This document shows positions 4,899 through 51,839 of a stretch of 51,964 nt of DNA, piece after piece. Under the pieces are notes generated by a model, which saw nothing but the letters and a program-made list of their open reading frames with translations, was not told the origin of the DNA and ran no database searches. How positions within the stretch are numbered: position 1 is the stretch's first letter; the number at the start of each line of letters is the position of its first letter. The translations under genes and the position numbers were made by a program. Source of the DNA: an uncultured Mycoplasmatota bacterium (GTDB lineage Bacteria; Bacillota_I; Bacilli_A; RF39; UBA660); NCBI GenBank assembly GCA_947576095.1, contig CANPPW010000007.1, positions 1 through 51,964 on the forward strand, given 5' to 3'.

Positions 4899-5824
4899 TC
4901 TTTATCATCTCTCTTTCTTATATTTTGTAATTGTTTTTCTAAATCTTTTATTCTATTTTTTTCTTCATCCATCTCCATTTTTTTAGTTAGTATCTCTTCA
5001 ATTCCCATTTTAAGTACTAAAAACATGTTACTACATTCTTCTTCTGTTAAATTATGCACTCCGTCACTTATTTTAGTATAAATAGTGTTAAAACCCTGAT
5101 TAAACATTATAGAAGGTAAATATGGTTTTAAAATTTTAATTTTATCTTCCATTCTTTCTTTTTTGAAAGTATCAAAATCTATTTGTATATTTTCAATATT
5201 TTCTTTAAATACATCTATTAAAGTTTTTTCAAATATTCGTCGTAAATAAATTAACGCACCTATATAAGTACTAAAACTATATAAAGAACAAGCACTTTTG
5301 TAATATTCAGCATACTCTTTTCCAAGTATCTTTAAAAATTTCTTGTTATTAATGTTTTCATTCAAGTCATAAATGGAGGGATTTTGTCCTATCTTCATTA
5401 TTGTTTCATTATCTATTTTCATAAAGTGAATAATCATTTTATGTTGGCAGTCTGCCATTGCATGAAAAGTAAAGAAATCAATCGTTAGAAATACACTTTC
5501 CAAACTGTCATGTGGTATATATGTAGAACTAGTTGTTAAAGATCCTGGAGAACATTCTGCAAGCAAACTATTCATTGCTATAGCCGAATTATTGAAGGAA
5601 AATATTCTACGTGAATTACATTCTTTACAATAGCATTCTATTCTAATATCATTACATGGAAAAAAATTATACGCTTTCATTTTTTTATCTATATGTATCT
5701 TTTTATATAAAGGTTCTAACAACATTTTTTCCGTTATAAAATCATTTTTAGCAATACTAGGGTCAAAATCATGTTTCTTTTTAAATTCCATTTCACTATA
5801 ATTATAACTTTCTTTTAAATTCAT
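4895..5824 (-). CDS. Unknown protein: Cys-rich N-terminal domain, HEPN-like C-terminal domain
   Basis: 309 aa. The N-terminal half contains CYCKEC (about residues 65-70) and a later DCQHKM, possibly a zinc-ribbon-like fold. The C-terminal half is helical and includes SDGVHNLTEEEC followed by a helix, a pattern I associate with HEPN/DUF4145-like C-termini, and then a charged coiled coil (about residues 283-305). I do not recognise a named family. AAGGAG lies five bases before the ATG. The stop overlaps the ATG of the oxidoreductase (ATGA), which ties an apparently non-metabolic protein to the metabolic cassette. A truncated reading frame precedes it. Confidence 0.6.
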   Translation of the reverse strand: MNLKESYNYSEMEFKKKHDFDPSIAKNDFITEKMLLEPLYKKIHIDKKMKAYNFFPCNDIRIECYCKECNSRRIFSFNNSAIAMNSLLAECSPGSLTTSSTYIPHDSLESVFLTIDFFTFHAMADCQHKMIIHFMKIDNETIMKIGQNPSIYDLNENINNKKFLKILGKEYAEYYKSACSLYSFSTYIGALIYLRRIFEKTLIDVFKENIENIQIDFDTFKKERMEDKIKILKPYLPSIMFNQGFNTIYTKISDGVHNLTEEECSNMFLVLKMGIEEILTKKMEMDEEKNRIKDLEKQLQNIRKRDDKE

Positions 5825-6320: not shown

Positions 6321-7526
6321 ATGAAACTAATTGAAGAATTAGATACAAGCACAAAAAAAGACATCATAATCAAAGGATTAATCAGGTCTAAAGGTGTTTA
6401 TTTACTTGTATCAAAACCTAAAGTAGGAAAGTCTATGTTGGCACTGCAACTTTCCTACTGTATAACCAATGGATTACCATTTCTAGGACACAAAGTAATT
6501 CCATCACCTGTCTTATATATTAGCACAGAATCCGATTTTGGTCAATTACAGGACCGCTATAGAACACTAGGTCTAACTCCAAAAAAGGATTCTTTATTTA
6601 TAATAGATAGAGATGGAAAACCTAATATAAGCATACTTGATCATAAAGAGGAAATTGCTGATTTTGCTAGTGATAAAACAACAAACAAATTAGTAATTAT
6701 TGATATGCTTAAAGATATGGATGCTATTCATTATCAAAAATGGAGAACTGAAATGATGAAAGCAAATATTTCAAATAGTTATAAAAATGAAATTCAAAAA
6801 TTTTTAAAGATAGTTATCAATTGGGCTGTTAAAACTTATGGATTCAATATGAATAAGTTTTATGGTCGAATGGAACCTTTTTCTTCAGCAAGTGATATAA
6901 AGAAAGAAATGGATTTTTATACTTTAGAAGAGTTTAATCAATTTATATCTTCTGCACCAAATTTACAAATTAAATGTCTGTATGAAACTCTGTATTATTG
7001 TGGACTTCGTAGAGGTGAAGCAAGAGGATTACAATGGAAAGATGTTAATTGGATTGATAAGAGATTATCAGTTACCAAACAAGCTGTAACAAATGGCTCT
7101 GAATCCTCTACTATCTATGAACTTACAAAACCTAAAACTGAAAAAAGTAACAGGATTTTACCCATTGCTGAAATACTCTTTATAGATTTAAAACAATTAT
7201 ATGAAGAACAAAAACAGTTTGCTGATTTTAATGATAATTGGTTTATCTTTGGAGGATTTATTCCTATTACTTTTTATCAGATGAGACACAAAAATATAGA
7301 AATAGCAAAAGATGCAAATATAAAAAGAATAAGGCTACATGACTTTAGGCACAGTTGTGCATCCTTACTCATAAACAATAATGCAAACATTGCAGTTGTA
7401 TCACAATTTTTAGGACATGCTTCTATCGAAGAAACACTTGATACTTATACGCATATGTTCAAAGATAAACTTTATGATGCGGTAAATACTATAAATAAAC
7501 TAACTTATCCTGCACCTTCAATATAG
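6321..7526 (+). CDS. Chimera: RepA-like (AAA_25) ATPase N-terminus fused to tyrosine recombinase C-terminus
   Basis: 401 aa made of two unrelated halves. Residues 1 to about 131 are the start of a RepA/DnaB-type ATPase: Walker A KPKVGKS (32-38), LQLSYCITNGLPFLG and Walker B KLVIIDML. From about residue 132 the sequence is a phage-type integrase. A core-binding helix (HYQKWRTEMM) is followed by the catalytic residues CGLRRGEA (Arg), KPKTEKS (Lys), HDFRHS (His-x-x-Arg), FLGHAS (His) and DTYTHM (Tyr). The arm-binding N-terminus is absent. I infer an in-frame deletion between a replication gene and int of one integrative element. The catalytic domain could still be active. The start has a weak GAAAGG, and the remnant of an upstream gene ends four bases earlier. 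Confidence 0.8.
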   Translation: MKLIEELDTSTKKDIIIKGLIRSKGVYLLVSKPKVGKSMLALQLSYCITNGLPFLGHKVIPSPVLYISTESDFGQLQDRYRTLGLTPKKDSLFIIDRDGKPNISILDHKEEIADFASDKTTNKLVIIDMLKDMDAIHYQKWRTEMMKANISNSYKNEIQKFLKIVINWAVKTYGFNMNKFYGRMEPFSSASDIKKEMDFYTLEEFNQFISSAPNLQIKCLYETLYYCGLRRGEARGLQWKDVNWIDKRLSVTKQAVTNGSESSTIYELTKPKTEKSNRILPIAEILFIDLKQLYEEQKQFADFNDNWFIFGGFIPITFYQMRHKNIEIAKDANIKRIRLHDFRHSCASLLINNNANIAVVSQFLGHASIEETLDTYTHMFKDKLYDAVNTINKLTYPAPSI

Positions 7527-7751: not shown

Positions 7752-9740
7752 CTAACTTTCTATGTTTAGAACAGGTTCCAATATTTTTTTTACACATTCA
7801 TGGTCTTCATTATCCTTTAAAAATAATGCACTATCTTCTTTAGCCTTTAATAAAATTGAAAAATCCCTTTTAATATCTGCTATCATAAATTTCATATCAC
7901 CACTTTGTTTAGTTCCAAATAAATCCCCACTACCTCTTAAACGAAAATCCTCTTCACTAATCTTAAAACCATCATCTTCTCTTTCCATAACTTCTAATCT
8001 TTCAATTTCACTATTACTAATTAAAAAACAATAAGACTGTAAATCATTTCGCCCTACTCTGCCGCGCAATTGATGAAGTGTCGAAAGTCCAAAACGAAAT
8101 GCATCAAAAATAACAATCATTGTAGCATTTGGAACATCTATACCAACTTCTATCACTGTTGTACTAATCAAAATTTGTATATTATTTTCGGAGAACCTCT
8201 TCATTACCTCTCCTTTTTCTTCCTTTTTCAACTTACCATGTAATACCGAAATATTATACTGTTTTCCAAATGCTCGATTCATCTTTTCATAAAGTTGCTT
8301 TACATTTTCTAAATCCATATTTTCACTTTCTTCAATTAAGGGAGCAATAACATAAATTTGATGCCCACTTTGAAGTTGTTCATACATACTTTGCAACACA
8401 TCTTTTATTTGTGAATCTTTTTTCACCTTAGTAATAATTTTTTTTCTGCCATGAGGTCTCGTTTTAATATTGGAAATATCCATATCCCCATAAAGCGCTA
8501 AAGCATAAGTTCTCGGAATGGGTGTAGCACTCATATATAAAATATCTGGAAGATATCCTTTATTTTTCAAATTGCTTCTTTGTCTTACCCCAAATCTATG
8601 CTGCTCATCGGTAACGACCAATCCTAAATTATTATATACCAGTTTTTCACTAATCAAGGCATGCGTTCCTATAACTATATCAATTTTACCAGTTCTAATT
8701 CCATCATAGATTTCCCTTTTTTCTTTCATACACGTCTTTCCTGTTAACAAAGAAATTGATATATTAAATTCTTTCATAAGAGAAAGTAAATTTGTATAAT
8801 GTTGCTCTGCAAGTATTTCAGTAGGAGCCATTAAAGCACTTTGGTATCCTCCTAAATAATTCATATACATAGAAACAATTGCAACAATTGTTTTTCCACT
8901 ACCAACATCCCCTTGCAAAAGGCGATTCATTCTTTTAGAACAACTTAAATCATTATAAATAGTTTGTATACTCTGATATTGATCTTCTGTAAGTCTAAAT
9001 GGCAAACTATCAATAAATTGTTTAACCTTAAATTCCTCGATTTTTCTCTCCAATCCTTCTTTCATAGTTTGATTGTTTTTTAAATATTCCATACGTATCA
9101 TAAAAATAAATAATTCTTCATACTTTGTTCGAAGTCTGGCTCTCTTTAAATTAGAAAGTGATGAAGGTCTGTGCAACTCTAAAATTGATTCCCTCTTTGA
9201 TAAAAATTTATATTTTTCCCGATATTCTAAAGGAATATAATCTTCAACAGTACTATCTAAAAGTAAAGATTTATGAATAACTGACTCAAGCTTCTTACTA
9301 CTCAACCCATAAACAGTATGATAAACAGCCTCAATTTTTACTTCATCAGATAACTTAGAAAATCGTATATCATTTGCTGTAATAGTATTATGTCTTTTAT
9401 CATATTTACCAAAAATAGTAATTTCTGTCCCTACCGATAATCTTGACTTTAGAAAAGCCCTATTGAAGATAATAATATGAACAAGACTATTATTCGTTCT
9501 TAAAATAAAATTCATTTTATTAAGTTTCTTATGAATAAAAAAAACATTAGGAAGTGATTCCACTACTCCATCTACAATAACTTTACCATCAGATTCTACA
9601 TCTAATAAATTTGTTCTTTGCAAAATATTATACCGAAAAGGATAAAAAGTTACTAAATCTTCTATAGTGAAAATCCCCAACTTTTCAAGTAATTCTGTAG
9701 TATGGGTTCCAACTCCTTTTAAATTTTCTAAATGATTCAA
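7752..9740 (-). CDS. recG: ATP-dependent DNA helicase RecG
   Basis: 662 aa, close to the usual 680. RecG remodels stalled replication forks and branch-migrates Holliday junctions. The N-terminal wedge/OB region (about 50-150) starts with KGVGTHTTELLEKLGI. Helicase motifs are GDVGSGKT (about 277-284), DEQHRFG, MSATPIPRT, VIEVGIDVPNA and QLRGRVGR, ending in the RecG C-terminal region (LRGSGDLFGTKQSG). AAGGTG precedes the ATG. It has its own consensus promoter, which carries an SOS box, and is the only gene between that promoter and the terminator at 7584-7635. Confidence 0.95.
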   Translation of the reverse strand: MNHLENLKGVGTHTTELLEKLGIFTIEDLVTFYPFRYNILQRTNLLDVESDGKVIVDGVVESLPNVFFIHKKLNKMNFILRTNNSLVHIIIFNRAFLKSRLSVGTEITIFGKYDKRHNTITANDIRFSKLSDEVKIEAVYHTVYGLSSKKLESVIHKSLLLDSTVEDYIPLEYREKYKFLSKRESILELHRPSSLSNLKRARLRTKYEELFIFMIRMEYLKNNQTMKEGLERKIEEFKVKQFIDSLPFRLTEDQYQSIQTIYNDLSCSKRMNRLLQGDVGSGKTIVAIVSMYMNYLGGYQSALMAPTEILAEQHYTNLLSLMKEFNISISLLTGKTCMKEKREIYDGIRTGKIDIVIGTHALISEKLVYNNLGLVVTDEQHRFGVRQRSNLKNKGYLPDILYMSATPIPRTYALALYGDMDISNIKTRPHGRKKIITKVKKDSQIKDVLQSMYEQLQSGHQIYVIAPLIEESENMDLENVKQLYEKMNRAFGKQYNISVLHGKLKKEEKGEVMKRFSENNIQILISTTVIEVGIDVPNATMIVIFDAFRFGLSTLHQLRGRVGRNDLQSYCFLISNSEIERLEVMEREDDGFKISEEDFRLRGSGDLFGTKQSGDMKFMIADIKRDFSILLKAKEDSALFLKDNEDHECVKKILEPVLNIES

Positions 9741-9766: not shown

Positions 9767-9795
9767 ATTATAACGAACTTTAGTTCGTCTGTCAA
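9767..9795 (-). promoter_or_regulatory. recG promoter (consensus sigma-A)
   Basis: On the minus strand: TTGACA (9790-9795), exactly 17 bp, TATAAT (9767-9772). A LexA-type box fills the spacer. Confidence 0.8.
9774..9787. promoter_or_regulatory. LexA/DinR SOS box in the recG promoter
   Basis: CGAAC-TTTA-GTTCG fits the Gram-positive SOS consensus CGAACN4GTTCG exactly, and the palindrome extends one more base each side. It lies between -35 and -10, where LexA binding would block RNA polymerase. This implies recG is induced by DNA damage here. Confidence 0.8.
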
Positions 9796-9828
9796 TACAG
9801 TAAATATTTTTTATAAAAATTTAAAAAA

Positions 9829-9850
9829 AGCTTGACAAAACAAGCTTCTT
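9829..9850 (-). terminator. Terminator of the PFOR transcript
   Basis: On the minus strand AAGCTTG-TTTTG-TCAAGCTT is followed by a run of T. It lies about 130 bases after the PFOR stop, so that mRNA has a long 3' UTR antisense to the plus-strand small RNA. The hairpin overlaps the -35 of that small RNA. Confidence 0.7.
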
Positions 9851-9860
9851 AGGTTAGTAT
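9832..9860 (+). promoter_or_regulatory. Promoter for the candidate small RNA at 9867
   Basis: -35 TTGACA (9832-9837), 17-bp spacer, -10 TAGTAT (9855-9860, 4 of 6). No plus-strand ORF follows before the terminator. Confidence 0.55.
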
Positions 9861-9866
9861 ATACAG

Positions 9867-9966
9867 TACCAATTCGGAATTAGGCGAATTGGTGCTAGTA
9901 TCACACTAGCCAACCCCTTTTTATTCTTTTATTGAACAGTTTCTCAGGGGGACTGTTCTTTTTGTT
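9867..9966 (+). ncRNA. Candidate C-rich small regulatory RNA antisense to the PFOR 3' UTR
   Basis: About 100 bases between a promoter and an intrinsic terminator. It has a 9-bp hairpin (9868-9876/9885-9893), a 6-bp hairpin (9894-9899/9905-9910), a single-stranded CAACCCCTTTTT segment (9911-9922), an AU linker, and a terminator hairpin (9934-9940/9952-9958) with a T-tract. CCCC runs flanked by U are the Shine-Dalgarno-pairing seeds of Firmicute sRNAs such as RoxS/RsaE. Here the terminator loop holds GGGGG (9947-9951), which could pair with the CCCC as a pseudoknot or lock. There is no ORF with a ribosome binding site. Function is an inference. Confidence 0.55.
9934..9966 (+). terminator. Terminator of the candidate small RNA
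   Basis: GAACAGT/ACTGTTC stem followed by TTTTTGTTT on the plus strand. On the minus strand the hairpin has no T-tract, so it does not end PFOR mRNA. Confidence 0.65.
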
Positions 9967-9978
9967 TACAAAAAACTA

Positions 9979-12900
9979 TTAGAAAGTAATTTCAACATTT
10001 TTATCATTGATTTCTTCTGTTTCTTTATTTTCCAAGCTTTGATAATATCGATATTTTTTAATAGCTTGCTCCTTGTTTTCTTTTAATAATCGCTTAGCCT
10101 CTTCTGGGTTTACTTTTTTTAAATTAGAATACCTTGTCTCACCACTTAGAAATTCGTCATATAAATCAAAATTTATATTTTTACTATAAAGAGTAAATTT
10201 TTTCGTTTCAGGATGATAACTAAAAGTAGGAAAATAACCACATTTTGTTGCTAATTTTTCTTCTTCTATAGTATAGGACATTCCCTTTTTGATTCCATGT
10301 GAAATACAAGGTGAATATGCTATTAAGATAGATGGCCCATGATAAGATGCTGCCTCTTTCATAATTTTTATCGTTTGTACAAAATTAGATCCCAAACAGA
10401 TTTGTCCTACATATACATGGGGATAACACATAGCAATGCGGGCTAGATCTTTCTTTTGTGTTACCTTCCCATTTGATGCAAAAGATGCAAGTGAACCAGT
10501 ATGAGTAGCTTTTGATGCTTGGCCTCCTGTATTAGAATATACTTCTGAATCTAAAACCAAAATATTTATATCCTCTTTAGAAGATAAAATCTGATCAATT
10601 CCACTAAATCCAATATCGTATGCCCATCCATCTCCACCAACAACATATATCATTCGTGCCACAATATAATCTTTTATCTCATTTAACTGCTTAGGTGCGG
10701 TTTGATAATCTATATTTTCATAAACTTCTTTTGTAATGGTATAATCTTGTCTATTTTTCAGCCACTTTTCAAATAAAACATGATTGGGGTTATCCATATT
10801 CTGTCTCATAATTTTCTCTATGCGATCTCTCATAACTAAATTTCCTATAAGAATACCATACCCATACTCTGCATTATCTTCAAACAGAGAACTTGCCCAA
10901 GGAATACTATAAGGAAGTGAAGAAGCACTTCCACCATAAATAGAAGAACAACCTGTAGCATTCGCAATCATTAATTTTTCTCCATGAAGTTGTGTTAAAA
11001 GTTTAATATAAGGTGTCTCCCCACAGCCTGCACAAGCTCCACAAAACTCAAAATGACAAGGTTCAAACTGACTTCCCTTAACTGTATCGCTTGGAAATAA
11101 ATGTTTGTTTTTGATATTTTTATTTAAATAATCAAATCTTTTTTGTTCATTTTCTCTTATTTGCTCAGATATCTTAGCTGAGGTAAGTGCCTTTATCATT
11201 CTAAGTCCTGGACACGTATTTATACATAATCCACATCCTGTACAATCTAATATAGAAATACCCATTGTAAAATAATACCCTTCTTTTCCAATCGCTTTTT
11301 TACATGAGTCTTTTACATATGAAGGAGCTTTTTGATATTCAGCTTCTGTTAACAAATAAGGCCTGATTACTCCATGTGGACATACAAGGGAACACTGATT
11401 ACATTCTATACAATTTTCTTTAATATACTTAGGAACAATCTGACTCATTCCTTTTTTTTCTAAACGACTTGTAGCAGGTTCAAATCTTCCATCTATATAT
11501 TTAGCAAAAGCAGATACAGGTAACTCTCCACCTTTGCGTACCATCAACGCTTTTGGAACATTTATCACCTTAGGTTCCTCTTCAACTAAAAGAACACTAT
11601 CAGATAATCGAATCTGATTTAAATATTGTGGTGCAGCCTCGATAGCTAAAAGATTTGCATTTACAATATCTTCCCCTTTTTTTTCAAACCTTTTTGTAAC
11701 TACTTTCTTTAATTTTTCTTTGGCAAGTGTATAATCTATTAACTGTGTTATTTTTAAAATAGCACTCTCCATAATCGTACTCATTCGATTTCCTAATCCC
11801 ACTTTACGGGCCAGTTCATAAGCATTAATGATATAAAACTGTATATTTTTACTTTTTAATATAAACTTGGTATTATCATTCAAATCTCTTTCAATTTCCT
11901 CTTTTGTTTTCGCTGTATTTAAAATAAAAATTCCGTTTTCTTGAATACCTTTTAATACATTAAATTCATGCATATAACTATCTTTTGTAACAACAACCAC
12001 CCTAGGTGTATCTACATAGTATGTTTTTCGAATTGGCGTATTAGAAAAACGTAAGTGAGAAACTGTCACTCCACCCGATTTTTTAGAATCATATTCAAAA
12101 TATCCTTGTACATATTGATTGGTATAATCCCCTATTAATTGAATAATCGATTTAGATGCAGAAACCATTCCATCACTACCATATCCATAAAATAGAAAAT
12201 CGTCAGTACCTCCTATTTTAAAGCCTTTGTCAATAGAAAGACTATAATGTGTTACATCATCTTCAATACCAATTGTAAAATTATGAAAAGGTTTATCTAA
12301 CATATCATACACAGCTTTTATCATAGCAGGAGTTGTATTTTTAGAAGAAAGTCCATACCTTCCTCCTACTACCTTTATTTTTTTTGAAGAAAGAATACTT
12401 ACCACATCTAAATAAAGGGGCTCTCCTACACTACCATGTTCTTTTGTACGATCTAAAACTGCTATTTTTTGCACGGTGCTAGGTAATTCTTTTAAAAAGT
12501 ATTTACTACTAAATGGTCGATATAAATGAACTTCAATAAGGCCTAATTTTTCCCCGCTTTTACTTAATGTATCGATAGTCTCTTTAATGGTCTCACAAAT
12601 AGAACCCATTGCTACAATTACTTTTTTGGCGGCTTTATGACCATAATAATTAAAAGGTCTATAATCCAGTCTACTTCTTGTATTTATTTTTTTCATATAA
12701 CGATTTACTAAATCAGGAATTTTCTCATAATATGGATTTTTTGCTTCCATTGCCTGAAAATAGATATCATCATTTTGTGCGGTTCCTCTAATATCTGGCT
12801 TTAATGGATTCATAGCTTTATTTCGAAACTTTTGCAACGCCTTTTTATCAATCAATTTTTCATAATCTTCCTTTTCTAATACTTTAATTTTATTAATTTC

Positions 12901-13431
12901 ATGACTTGTACGAAATCCATCAAAAAAATGTAGAAATGGGATAGAGGATTGAATCGCTACTAAGTGTGCTACCGCTGAAAGATAAGCTGCATCCTGAACA
13001 GAAGAGGAACATAACATAGCAAAACCTGTACTCCTTGCAGCATAAATATCCTGATGATCTCCCAAAATACTTAAAGCATGTGTCGATAATGATCTAGCCG
13101 CAACATGCATTGTAAGTGGAAGCATCTCACCTGCGATTTTGTACATGTTAGGAATCATTAGCAAAAGTCCTTGACTTGCGGTATATGTACTTGTTAAAAG
13201 GCCAGCTACTAAAGAACCATGTACCATACCTGCAGCACCTGCTTCGCTTTGCATCTCTACAACCTTTACTGCATCTCCAAAAATATTTTCCCTTTTTTGC
13301 TGACTCCATTCATCAATATGTTCTGCCATAGGACTTGATGGAGTAATAGGATAAATGCCTGCAACTTCTGTAAAAAAGTAAGAAGTATAACTACAAGCTT
13401 CATTTCCATCCACAGTTATTGTTTTTCTCAT
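9979..13431 (-). CDS. nifJ: Pyruvate:ferredoxin (flavodoxin) oxidoreductase, single chain
   Basis: 1150 aa from the chosen start. It oxidatively decarboxylates pyruvate with CoA to acetyl-CoA, CO2 and reduced ferredoxin, the central step of anaerobic glycolysis. It begins MRKTITVDGNEACSY...GIYPITPSSPMAEHIDEW. Two 4Fe-4S ferredoxin motifs (CIECNQCSLVCPHG and CTGCGLCINTCPG) and a C-terminal TPP domain (GCGETPY, GGDGWAYDIGFSG) follow. An upstream in-frame ATG (13533) would add 34 residues with no homology; AGAGG lies six bases before the ATG at 13431. It is oxygen-sensitive, which points to an anaerobe. It is monocistronic, with promoter at 13459-13489 and terminator at 9829-9850. Confidence 0.95.
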   Translation of the reverse strand: MRKTITVDGNEACSYTSYFFTEVAGIYPITPSSPMAEHIDEWSQQKRENIFGDAVKVVEMQSEAGAAGMVHGSLVAGLLTSTYTASQGLLLMIPNMYKIAGEMLPLTMHVAARSLSTHALSILGDHQDIYAARSTGFAMLCSSSVQDAAYLSAVAHLVAIQSSIPFLHFFDGFRTSHEINKIKVLEKEDYEKLIDKKALQKFRNKAMNPLKPDIRGTAQNDDIYFQAMEAKNPYYEKIPDLVNRYMKKINTRSRLDYRPFNYYGHKAAKKVIVAMGSICETIKETIDTLSKSGEKLGLIEVHLYRPFSSKYFLKELPSTVQKIAVLDRTKEHGSVGEPLYLDVVSILSSKKIKVVGGRYGLSSKNTTPAMIKAVYDMLDKPFHNFTIGIEDDVTHYSLSIDKGFKIGGTDDFLFYGYGSDGMVSASKSIIQLIGDYTNQYVQGYFEYDSKKSGGVTVSHLRFSNTPIRKTYYVDTPRVVVVTKDSYMHEFNVLKGIQENGIFILNTAKTKEEIERDLNDNTKFILKSKNIQFYIINAYELARKVGLGNRMSTIMESAILKITQLIDYTLAKEKLKKVVTKRFEKKGEDIVNANLLAIEAAPQYLNQIRLSDSVLLVEEEPKVINVPKALMVRKGGELPVSAFAKYIDGRFEPATSRLEKKGMSQIVPKYIKENCIECNQCSLVCPHGVIRPYLLTEAEYQKAPSYVKDSCKKAIGKEGYYFTMGISILDCTGCGLCINTCPGLRMIKALTSAKISEQIRENEQKRFDYLNKNIKNKHLFPSDTVKGSQFEPCHFEFCGACAGCGETPYIKLLTQLHGEKLMIANATGCSSIYGGSASSLPYSIPWASSLFEDNAEYGYGILIGNLVMRDRIEKIMRQNMDNPNHVLFEKWLKNRQDYTITKEVYENIDYQTAPKQLNEIKDYIVARMIYVVGGDGWAYDIGFSGIDQILSSKEDINILVLDSEVYSNTGGQASKATHTGSLASFASNGKVTQKKDLARIAMCYPHVYVGQICLGSNFVQTIKIMKEAASYHGPSILIAYSPCISHGIKKGMSYTIEEEKLATKCGYFPTFSYHPETKKFTLYSKNINFDLYDEFLSGETRYSNLKKVNPEEAKRLLKENKEQAIKKYRYYQSLENKETEEINDKNVEITF

Positions 13432-13458
13432 ACACATCCTCTTTTCTACTCTTATTTT

Positions 13459-13489
13459 ATTATAACATAGGTAAAAATATTTCTGACAA
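13459..13489 (-). promoter_or_regulatory. Probable PFOR promoter
   Basis: Minus strand: TTGTCA (13484-13489), a 19-bp spacer and TATAAT (13459-13464). The spacer is longer than ideal. It lies inside the reading frame of the longer start, which further argues against that start. Confidence 0.5.
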
Positions 13490-13658
13490 AAAATTAATTG
13501 AACTTTAGGTATTTTCTTTTTATTCATAATCAATATTTTTTATGAAAAGTTTCTATAGATGCTTAATTTCTTATAGTTAAAATTGTAATATAAATAATTC
13601 ATATATATAGTTTATATTGAAAAAAATGATATAATTAAAATAGAAAGGAAAAGATTGT

Positions 13659-14006
13659 ATGAAAAAAGAAATTAAAAATTTTGAAAAAATTATAGGAATT
13701 GTTTTAATAATTTTAACTGCTATTAGTTTAATTATCAATACATTACAATTTACAAACCAAATTTATAGTTGGAATTATAACACAGAAAGACTAAATAATT
13801 TATTAATTAGTAACCCTTTTGGAATTTTGTTATGGTTCGATAATATTTTAATATATATTTGTAGTATATTATATATTGTAAGTGCTATTAAATCTAAAAA
13901 GGATATATTAATTAAAATAAGCTTTTCTCTATTTTCCATTTTAACAACAATAGTTGTAACAACACTTTTAATAAATGTTGTTGCTAGTATATTTGGTATA
14001 TTTTAA
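13659..14006 (+). CDS. Small hypothetical membrane protein (three TM)
   Basis: 115 aa with hydrophobic helices at about 10-28, 54-76 and 85-112 and few charged residues between them. GAAAGGA precedes the ATG, and a terminator follows at 14027-14057, so it is a free-standing plus-strand gene between two minus-strand operons. A TATAAT-like -10 lies about 30 bases upstream. No family was recognised. The base composition is more AT-rich than its neighbours. Confidence 0.6.
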   Translation: MKKEIKNFEKIIGIVLIILTAISLIINTLQFTNQIYSWNYNTERLNNLLISNPFGILLWFDNILIYICSILYIVSAIKSKKDILIKISFSLFSILTTIVVTTLLINVVASIFGIF

Positions 14007-18225: not shown

Positions 18226-18443
18226 AATAAAAAAAGCACCCCTATAAGGACGTGCTAAACGTGGTACCACCTTAATTTATAGAAAAATCTATCTCTATAC
18301 TATAACGCGTTACCGATATATATTTTGTATATACTGCTTAAAAGGTGAATTCATAAATTCTTTTTTATTAGGATCCCACCTACCCTAACTCTCTTTAAAA
18401 AAAGATTTTTTATTACTACTCCTTTATAATCGCTTTAAATTTA
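18226..18443 (-). promoter_or_regulatory. T-box riboswitch, Phe specifier
   Basis: The minus-strand leader has the T-box motif AAGGTGGTACCACGTT (18258-18273), followed by a terminator AGCAC...GTGCT with a T run (18229-18256). In the specifier loop GAA is followed by TTC (18347-18349) and A, i.e. a Phe codon. Uncharged tRNA-Phe would stabilise the antiterminator and allow transcription of the hydrolase-like gene, pheS and pheT. Confidence 0.9.
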
Positions 18444-36787: not shown

Positions 36788-36998
36788 AAAAAGTATTATA
36801 GGAAGGACGAGCTAGGCCCGCGGTACCACCTTCATTCATAATACTTTATGCTCTCTACTTTTTAACGCAAAGGTACGCTATAGGTTTTACTATAGAGCTC
36901 CAAAGTAAGTTCATAAAATCTATCTAAAAACTTGCACCTACCGTTTTTTCTCTTGAAAATAGATGGTTTACTACTACTCTTTTTCATCGCTTCATACT
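36788..36998 (-). promoter_or_regulatory. T-box riboswitch, Leu specifier
   Basis: Minus-strand T-box motif AAGGTGGTACCGCGGG (about 36817-36833). A terminator pairing CCTTCCTATAATAC with its upstream complement, then a T run, closes it. In the specifier loop GAA is followed by CTT (36907-36909) and A, a Leu codon. Confidence 0.88.
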
Positions 36999-50496: not shown

Positions 50497-50690
50497 AAAA
50501 AATACCCCAGTCTTTTCTAGGAACGAAAAAAACCGTGGTACCATCCTAATAATTTCTTAATTTTCATAACGGCTTAGAACCGGCAAATTTTATTTGCACT
50601 CAAAAGGAGCTTTCAAATACATTCTTTTATTCATTCGCACCAGCCATGAACTCTCTTTAAAAAGAAAATATTCTACTTTTCTTTTTCATC
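50497..50690 (-). promoter_or_regulatory. T-box riboswitch, Ala specifier
   Basis: Minus-strand T-box motif AGGATGGTACCACGG (50533-50547). Upstream stem I shows GGCTGGTGCGAATG, and a weak CCTAG/CTGGG terminator with a T run follows. In the specifier loop GAA-A is followed by GCT (50608-50610), an Ala codon. The 5' part overlaps the end of the permease gene. Confidence 0.88.
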
Positions 50691-51839
50691 GATTTCTACA
50701 TTTAAATCTAATATATGATATTTTTCATCTATAAATACAAGTACAACTTTCACAATTGCAATAATTGGAGTAGATACAACCATACCAATAATACCAAAAA
50801 AATGACCAAAAAGCAAGAGTCCAAGCATAATTGTTACAGGATGTAACTTAGTAGTTTTACTCATAATAAGTGGTTGAAAGAAGTTCCCTTCAATAAACTG
50901 TATAATAAAAATCGAAATAAGTGTCAAAATACCAACTGTTGAATTTTGAGAAAATCCCACAATCACTGCAGGTGCTCCTCCTATATAAGGTCCTGCATAT
51001 GGAATGACATTCGTAATTCCACAAAATAGTCCAAAAAGCATAGGTGCCTTTAATCCTACAAGCCAAAGTGCTAGCGAAGAAACTACAAAAATAAGCGTAG
51101 AATCTAAAATGGTTCCTTCAACCCATTTTCTAAGAGAACTATTAGAAGCATCCATCAATTCTCTTGTTGTCTTTTGAAACTTTAGTGGAATAAAGGAAAA
51201 AATTGTATCATTCGCACTATCAAAACTCATTAAAAGATAAAAGCCTATCACAAGCCCTACTAAAATCGTTCCAAGTCCAGATATAGCGCCTTTTATAAGA
51301 TTCACTGTCATCAGTGGCAAATCATTGGTAAGACCCATTCCTATTTTACTGATTTGATCAAAAATATCTGCTTTAAATGATTTTACATCAAATCCTTCGA
51401 TTTTAGAAAAAGAATCCAAAAATTGTGTAATCCAAACCTTTACATCTTCAATAATACTAGGTACACTACTTGCAAATTCATTGATCTGATCCATTAAAAT
51501 GGGCACAATAGAACCAATCATGACTGCTAATATTCCTATGAAAAGAACATATGTAATAAAAGTTCCAAAACCTCGCCTAATTCCCTTTTTCTGAAGCCAT
51601 TTTACAAACGGATCAAACAGCCAAGCAATGCCAATTCCAATAAAAAGAGGAAATACAATCCTCAAAATAGTCAATAAAAATTCTTTTACTTTCCATTCTT
51701 TACAAACCATTGTAATTACATAAACACAGATAATTAGTATTAATATATATAAGATGTGTAGTAGCTTCTTACTCGTTGATATTACATCATTTAATTCATT
51801 TTTATTAATTTCAGTAGGTTGATATTTTTTTTTAAGCAT
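50673..51839 (-). CDS. AI-2E family transporter / permease (YrrI-like)
   Basis: 388 aa with about seven to eight TM helices. After a polar N-terminus come helices at about 28-48 and 60-80, then a cytosolic or periplasmic stretch (about 125-175) and the family signature GLKAPMLFGLFCGITNVIPYAGPYIGG. PLIMSKTTKLHPVTIMLGLLLFG follows. Substrate unknown; family names come from one AI-2 exporter claim and should not be taken literally. As in B. subtilis yrrI, it stands upstream of alaS. Confidence 0.88.
   Translation of the reverse strand: MLKKKYQPTEINKNELNDVISTSKKLLHILYILILIICVYVITMVCKEWKVKEFLLTILRIVFPLFIGIGIAWLFDPFVKWLQKKGIRRGFGTFITYVLFIGILAVMIGSIVPILMDQINEFASSVPSIIEDVKVWITQFLDSFSKIEGFDVKSFKADIFDQISKIGMGLTNDLPLMTVNLIKGAISGLGTILVGLVIGFYLLMSFDSANDTIFSFIPLKFQKTTRELMDASNSSLRKWVEGTILDSTLIFVVSSLALWLVGLKAPMLFGLFCGITNVIPYAGPYIGGAPAVIVGFSQNSTVGILTLISIFIIQFIEGNFFQPLIMSKTTKLHPVTIMLGLLLFGHFFGIIGMVVSTPIIAIVKVVLVFIDEKYHILDLNVEIDEKEK

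Follow-up and report, generated by a model that had tools for sequence, protein, structure and literature searches.

The region at 9832–9966 of the window, by which is meant the whole stretch of 51,964 nucleotides analysed here, raises the question of whether it is a small RNA (sRNA) gene and, if so, on which mRNAs the product would act. The original prediction was of an independent C-rich sRNA of the RoxS/RsaE type, involved in the control of redox metabolism and antisense to the 3' UTR of the adjoining pyruvate:ferredoxin oxidoreductase (PFOR) gene. The reading favoured here, with a probability of about 0.74, is that of a trans-acting antisense sRNA which would couple the division operon with the assembly of pili and which appears to have been copied by phages.

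Structure of the sRNA gene

All of the parts originally described, these being a promoter, two hairpins, a free C/U-rich linker and an intrinsic terminator, are present and are listed in Table 1. For the 100-nt strand the folding energy is −31.4 kcal/mol, while shuffled sequences give −18.1 ± 2.7 (z −5.0; 0 of 200 as stable). In relatives both promoter hexamers, the linker and all three of the hairpins are found again at the aligned position, and the promoter has the form TTGACA...TTAGTATA. Promoter-like matches are common in the window, with 10 observed and 11.5 expected, but terminator matches are not, with 2 observed and 0.6 expected. The stem of the terminator is at 9934–9958 and is followed by TTTTT. 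The region has a promoter and a terminator of its own, contains no ORF and is found in varied gene neighbourhoods, as would be the case for the gene of a trans-acting antisense sRNA. Judged by its sequence, 9832–9966 is a genuine small-RNA gene, which would be transcribed as the RNA given in Table 1.

Directly 5' of the −10 box in relatives there is often a TCGRTTAGTATA sequence (window 9842–9860), which suggests an extended promoter or a regulator site. On the minus strand, 9825–9850 has a terminator-like hairpin within the sRNA promoter. PFOR read-through stopping at this hairpin would, in this genome, be antisense to the entire sRNA.

Table 1. Features of the sRNA locus, its neighbours and the seed sites of phages and prophages
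Feature	Coordinates	Strand	Remarks
Promoter TTGACA-17-TAGTAT	9832–9860	+	TTGACA 9832–9837, TAGTAT 9855–9860; aligned in 30 family loci
Predicted sRNA transcript	9867–9966	+	Putative 5' end from promoter spacing, putative 3' end from terminator
Hairpin 1	9868–9893	+	AGGCGAAU (9882–9889) in loop and 3' arm; complements rsmH AUUCGCCU
Hairpin 2 GCTAGTATCACACTAGC	9894–9910	+	Invariant except basal pair
Unpaired seed (linker) CAACCCCTTTTTATTCTTTT	9911–9930	+	Same seed in phage RNAs
Intrinsic terminator	9934–9963	+	Stem sequence turns over with covariation
AGGGGG, terminator apex	9946–9951	+	Kept as AGGGG in 105 of 128 copies (82%)
recG	7752–9740	−	Divergent upstream neighbour in most loci
PFOR ORF	9979–13533	−	Convergent neighbour here; neither conserved neighbour nor target
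Phage and prophage seed sites	L347:4311 (−), L348:8132, L271:~9206, L351:6922 (−), L352:5310, L370:7074 (−), L350:967 (−), others

Distribution and conservation

A covariance search in related genomes places the sRNA in 256 of 291 genomes and 143 of 150 genera of a family of uncultured Bacilli/Mycoplasmatota, with the CCCC segment and the hairpins kept; the genomes of this family are metagenome-assembled (MAGs) and incomplete. The same model finds the sRNA in none of approximately 258 genomes from the other families of the class, and in a class-wide draw all 35 of the genomes with a match belong to the host family. By DNA search the element is present in the window's own genome and 31 of 36 others of the family, and in 0 of 23 genomes from other families of the class. 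In named genomes a pattern scan found 117 stretches, nearly all from uncultured gut or rumen MAGs labelled as Bacilli, Tenericutes, Erysipelotrichaceae or Mycoplasmatota, Candidatus Pelethosoma being among them. The lineage is probably the order RF39 of GTDB. The sRNA matches no Rfam family at the gathering threshold or at E ≤ 10, and is classed here as a new family. A second covariance-model match is found in at least 16 genomes, and in one stretch (L052) there are two tandem sRNA copies, at 5089 and 5244, 155 nt apart.

The linker, CAACCCCUUUUUAUUCUUUU, is near-invariant across the family. Hairpin 2 (CTAGTATCACACTAG) is identical in 128 of 128 distinct copies, most of which were found by a search pattern that excludes the 5' half of this hairpin. 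The three stems are recovered by RNAalifold, with hairpin 2 nearly invariant, compensatory double-sided changes at two pairs of hairpin 1, and a strongly covarying terminator stem. It had also been proposed that GGGGG in the terminator loop pairs with the CCCC of the linker. The GGGGG is present and, because AGGGG is conserved in 82% of the members, it probably matters; in the predicted fold, however, part of it is paired within the terminator stem. A CCCC/AGGGG self-lock is possible, and is beyond the reach of covariation because the CCCC never varies.

Pilus genes as predicted targets

A set of 58 family genomes was searched for the complement of the linker, 3 mismatches at most being allowed, and the contexts of the matches were read. 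Sites recur at the ribosome-binding site of pilB and at that of a cpaF-like ATPase gene, at pilin starts, and in the coding sequence of rsmH. In the 20-nt search about half of the matches outside the sRNA are chance-like, in A-rich coding sequence, and targets were therefore assessed by orthologue groups.

At the pilB starts of 28 genera the mean energy of the linker duplex is −16.1 kcal/mol, compared to −8.0 for 565 background starts; these, like the other energies of pairing given here, are plain duplex energies without accessibility. The complementarity of pilB to the linker, taken from −40 to +15, is in the 2nd percentile (p 5e-18), against the 28th for the reversed linker and the 54th for the anti-SD sequence. 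GGGG is present in 16 of the 28 pilB sites and in 26 of the 565 background starts, whereas GGAGG is depleted (1 of 28 versus 128 of 565). When 27 orthologue clusters were ranked without choosing targets, pilB (PF00437) was first, pilC (PF00482) second, a prepilin-like gene third and a second prepilin sixth, with recG neutral. Since the clusters were drawn from the neighbourhoods of recG and pilB, the ranking is not genome-wide. When windows of 20 nt were slid along the sRNA, each of the four pilus groups peaked once only, at the linker, and hairpin 1 gave no signal against pilB. Samples of 400 kb were taken from two genomes. The top gene by score in the first sample, and a seven-gene run among the 28 best of the second, are in or beside a Tad/Flp-like pilus cluster containing cpaB-like, cpaF-like and T4SS-pilin-like genes. 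The earlier description of an independent C-rich sRNA, with a CCCC/U segment complementary to ribosome-binding sites, is supported by this predicted pairing with pilB and pilC.

In families without the sRNA, pilB-type genes are at the background level (mean −8.6). The pilB sites are weak (−10.0 to −11.1) in three genera whose sampled members are all without the sRNA. Two further sRNA-less genera do not fit, with pilB at −16.2 and −17.3, perhaps due to assembly gaps. Most of the genomes that individually do not have the sRNA retain strong pilB sites. In the window's own genome the sites of pilB (−12.4) and pilC (−11.6) are both moderate and that of rsmH (CUAAAAAGAAUAAAAAAGGGGUUUUUAUUCGCC, −21.2) is strong; no complementary site was found at the start of its comEA-like gene.

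The pilB gene lies divergent to a prepilin gene, and the promoter shared by the two is palindromic, TTATCCTAAA..TATTATATAATA..TTTAGGATAA (for example at L242 ~13575–13690); CTAGTCC is conserved in the pilB leader. The palindrome and CTAGTCC are probably the site of a pilus regulator.

An XRE-like gene with an anti-sRNA leader (L149/L150) was considered as a core target and rejected, the gene being present in 7 of the 58 genomes and G067 being without the site. This accessory gene follows ppdK, at L272:5516–5989 (−) and L273:7768–8235 (+). Its leader contains a full antisense of the sRNA linker and a CUAG hairpin, after which there is a U run in G013, and looks like a sponge or an attenuator.

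The division operon

The site in rsmH consists of the codons for EILKRIKRGFLFAFD, approximately codons 38–48. Against synonymous recoding, using pooled codon usage, the mean z over 33 genomes is −1.94 and the Stouffer score is −11.1, with other rsmH windows between −2.4 and +1.6. The first test was of genomes with FAFD only, and the score of −11.1 comes from its repetition without this selection. A Stouffer score of −6.9 is obtained at this site with the reversed linker, therefore part of the signal is composition. In G032 the nucleotides of the site are retained in a different codon register, and the full site is absent from nearly half of the genera tested. At the start region of ftsL, the gene after rsmH, the energy is −13.2 compared to −8.5 (z −8.5), and in two genomes the ftsL ribosome-binding site has perfect linker matches of 17–18 nt.

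A few nucleotides past the GGGG in rsmH, AUUCGCCU is complementary to AGGCGAAU of hairpin 1 over 8 bp (−11.8). GGCGAA in hairpin 1 and TTCGCC in rsmH were scored in 46 genomes, with both found in 25, the sRNA motif alone in 6, the rsmH motif alone in 0 and neither in 15 (Fisher 1e-7, the genera being related). The linker site is stronger when TTCGCC is present (−18.7 versus −10.6). In an rsmH tree from which the site was left out, there are 15 changes of state for rsmH and 13 for the sRNA. A sign test on the supported branches has approximately three informative pairs, all concordant, which is too few (p 0.25). Read by eye, the tree has eight concordant near-neighbour comparisons (G015/G011, G074/G076, G079/G024, G008/G000, G067/G031, G012/G073, G016/G062, and G007/G006) and none opposed. 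Conserved complementarity to distant mRNAs, together with covariation, is as expected of a trans-acting antisense sRNA.

It is conceivable, although rather unlikely, that the coding site in rsmH is mainly a sponge, with the mRNA of the division operon, whole or as a fragment, titrating the sRNA and relieving the pilus targets when this operon is transcribed. In this case rsmH would be the regulator, and the regulated targets would be the pilus genes. No other site is as strong as that of rsmH, which is internal to a coding sequence and under selection at its synonymous positions. In this it is like FtsO of E. coli, a sponge inside ftsI that is conserved at wobble positions (PMC7815308), and both are in the division cluster. 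FtsO is itself a coding-derived RNA; in the present case the sRNA comes from a separate gene, with rsmH holding the coding site. A pure sponge would have no need of the site at the ftsL starts, which is present in this operon as well.

Copies of the linker in phages and prophages

In viral contigs the linker was found as a 20-mer in 6 contigs and as an 18-mer in 30. In 19 of these 30, which have a GC content of 26–36%, there is a 3' hairpin far better than those of shuffled sequences, accompanied in most of the 19 by a 5' hairpin and a TATAAT-like box. The other 11, without strong flanking hairpins and often coding or of higher GC, were set aside. The reversed 18-mer, used as a control, was found in 8 contigs, with such hairpins in 0. 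A search of the sRNA against annotated phage and plasmid collections gave no match.

The phage RNAs have at least five unrelated architectures around the seed. These include a separate small gene (L351 and L352), a type with a hairpin like hairpin 2 (L350), and a copy directly 3' of a tRNA (L347/L348; Rfam RF00005 at L348:7960–8108). Several of the phage and prophage seed RNAs are just upstream of terminase genes, including the prophage copies in the family genomes G009, G027, G030, and G268. Because they are in the same sense as the sRNA, the phage RNAs would be mimics, not sponges. The phages with the seed probably infect the family that bears the sRNA, and would most simply carry it to switch the targets of the host sRNA. 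The unusual second arm and the phage-borne copies of the seed are the features that set this predicted sRNA family apart. Phage inhibitors of PilB are known and pili serve as phage receptors (PMC11656802). Lowered DNA uptake has been proposed as a gain to the phage or element in the cases of altered csRNA3 and RocRp (PMC9764711, PMC9977716).

Proposed mode of action

In the mechanism proposed here, the free 20-nt linker would pair with the ribosome-binding and start regions of pilB, pilC, the prepilins and ftsL, with some Tad/Flp-like pilus genes (cpaB/cpaF-like), and with the rsmH coding site of the division/cell-wall operon. The pairing with rsmH would be bipartite, the linker with AGAAUAAAAAGGGGUU and hairpin 1 with its complement a few nucleotides downstream, and hairpin 2 would be a looped-out spacer. 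The sRNA is probably a repressor. Pairing at start sites would block translation, such that pilus assembly, and hence any pilus-dependent DNA uptake, would be repressed and the division operon would be tuned. Pairing within the rsmH coding sequence may lead to decay or interference, or to titration of the sRNA. The gain to the phage would be fewer pili, as receptors, or less DNA uptake.

A broader proposal, for and against which the balance is about even, is that a family-wide sRNA with one seed and a co-evolving rsmH arm links pili to division, and that phages took the seed, in their several unrelated architectures, to seize the regulon, for example by hiding pilus receptors or blocking DNA uptake. 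If true, pili and division in a large uncultured gut lineage would be under a conserved control at the post-transcriptional level, and there would be phage RNA mimicry at a scale that exceeds the known mobile-element case, RocRp. The motive of the phages would also become testable, be it receptor hiding, superinfection exclusion or blocked DNA uptake.

Activation of the targets, through stabilisation or an anti-antisense effect, is improbable. The direction of control is not given by the sequence and pairing in coding sequence can protect an mRNA; however, the pairing covers the ribosome-binding sites of pilB, pilC and ftsL, which is usually inhibitory. Still less probable is that an RNA-binding protein or an RNase recognises the linker, or that the linker is part of a general sRNA scaffold, with complementarity that is a by-product of A-rich/GGGG ribosome-binding sites. 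The phage RNAs have the linker alone in common, always beside a 3' hairpin, and ribosome-binding sites are A/G-rich, both of which would suit this explanation. It does not account for the extreme complementarity of pilB to the linker where the anti-SD is ordinary and GGAGG is depleted, nor for a coding site in rsmH that is selected synonymously and covaries with hairpin 1.

Known sRNA families and gene neighbourhood

RocR of Legionella pneumophila is a trans sRNA that pairs with DNA-uptake and type IV pilus mRNAs, and RocRp is a mobile-element copy with the same targets (PMC9977716). The antisense sRNA proposed here would work alike, having pilus mRNAs (pilB, pilC and prepilins) as predicted targets, although a sequence relation is not expected. 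It differs in that rsmH and ftsL are also predicted targets and in that the mobile copies are phage-borne and keep little beyond the seed. RocR depends upon the ProQ/FinO protein RocC. The csRNAs of Streptococcus pneumoniae are sRNAs that repress the competence gene comC by pairing, and transformation is reduced where a prophage insertion alters csRNA3 (PMC4507080, PMC9764711); the sRNA here would work in a similar way but differs from these in seed, structure and target genes. Membership of the csRNA family (RF02379) was rejected, with a score of 20 bits against a gathering threshold of 57 and in the upstream region 9769–9852 only. RoxS/RsaE (RF01820) likewise has a C-rich unpaired seed aimed at ribosome-binding sites, but has other targets and another structure.

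Over 146 loci recG is the usual divergent upstream gene and the downstream gene is highly variable, PFOR being the adjacent gene in 34 and one gene further away in 16. The sRNA gene is independent of PFOR. That it is a redox sRNA of the RoxS/RsaE type which is also antisense to the PFOR 3' UTR, as first proposed, is highly improbable, for although the seed is C-rich and PFOR is convergent in this window, the score against RF01820 is 15.8 bits where the gathering threshold is 79, PFOR adjoins only about a third of the loci and is not a conserved antisense partner, and PFOR start regions, on which alone redox and central-metabolism targets were judged, complement the linker less than the average gene (z +3.4).

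Elsewhere in the window, a single ORF at 6321–7526 has an N-terminal RecA/AAA-like ATPase region and a C-terminal tyrosine-recombinase (phage integrase) region and, judged by eye, is possibly a fusion. Three T-box leaders exceed the Rfam thresholds, all on the minus strand, at 18243–18439, 36800–36996, and 50516–50698.
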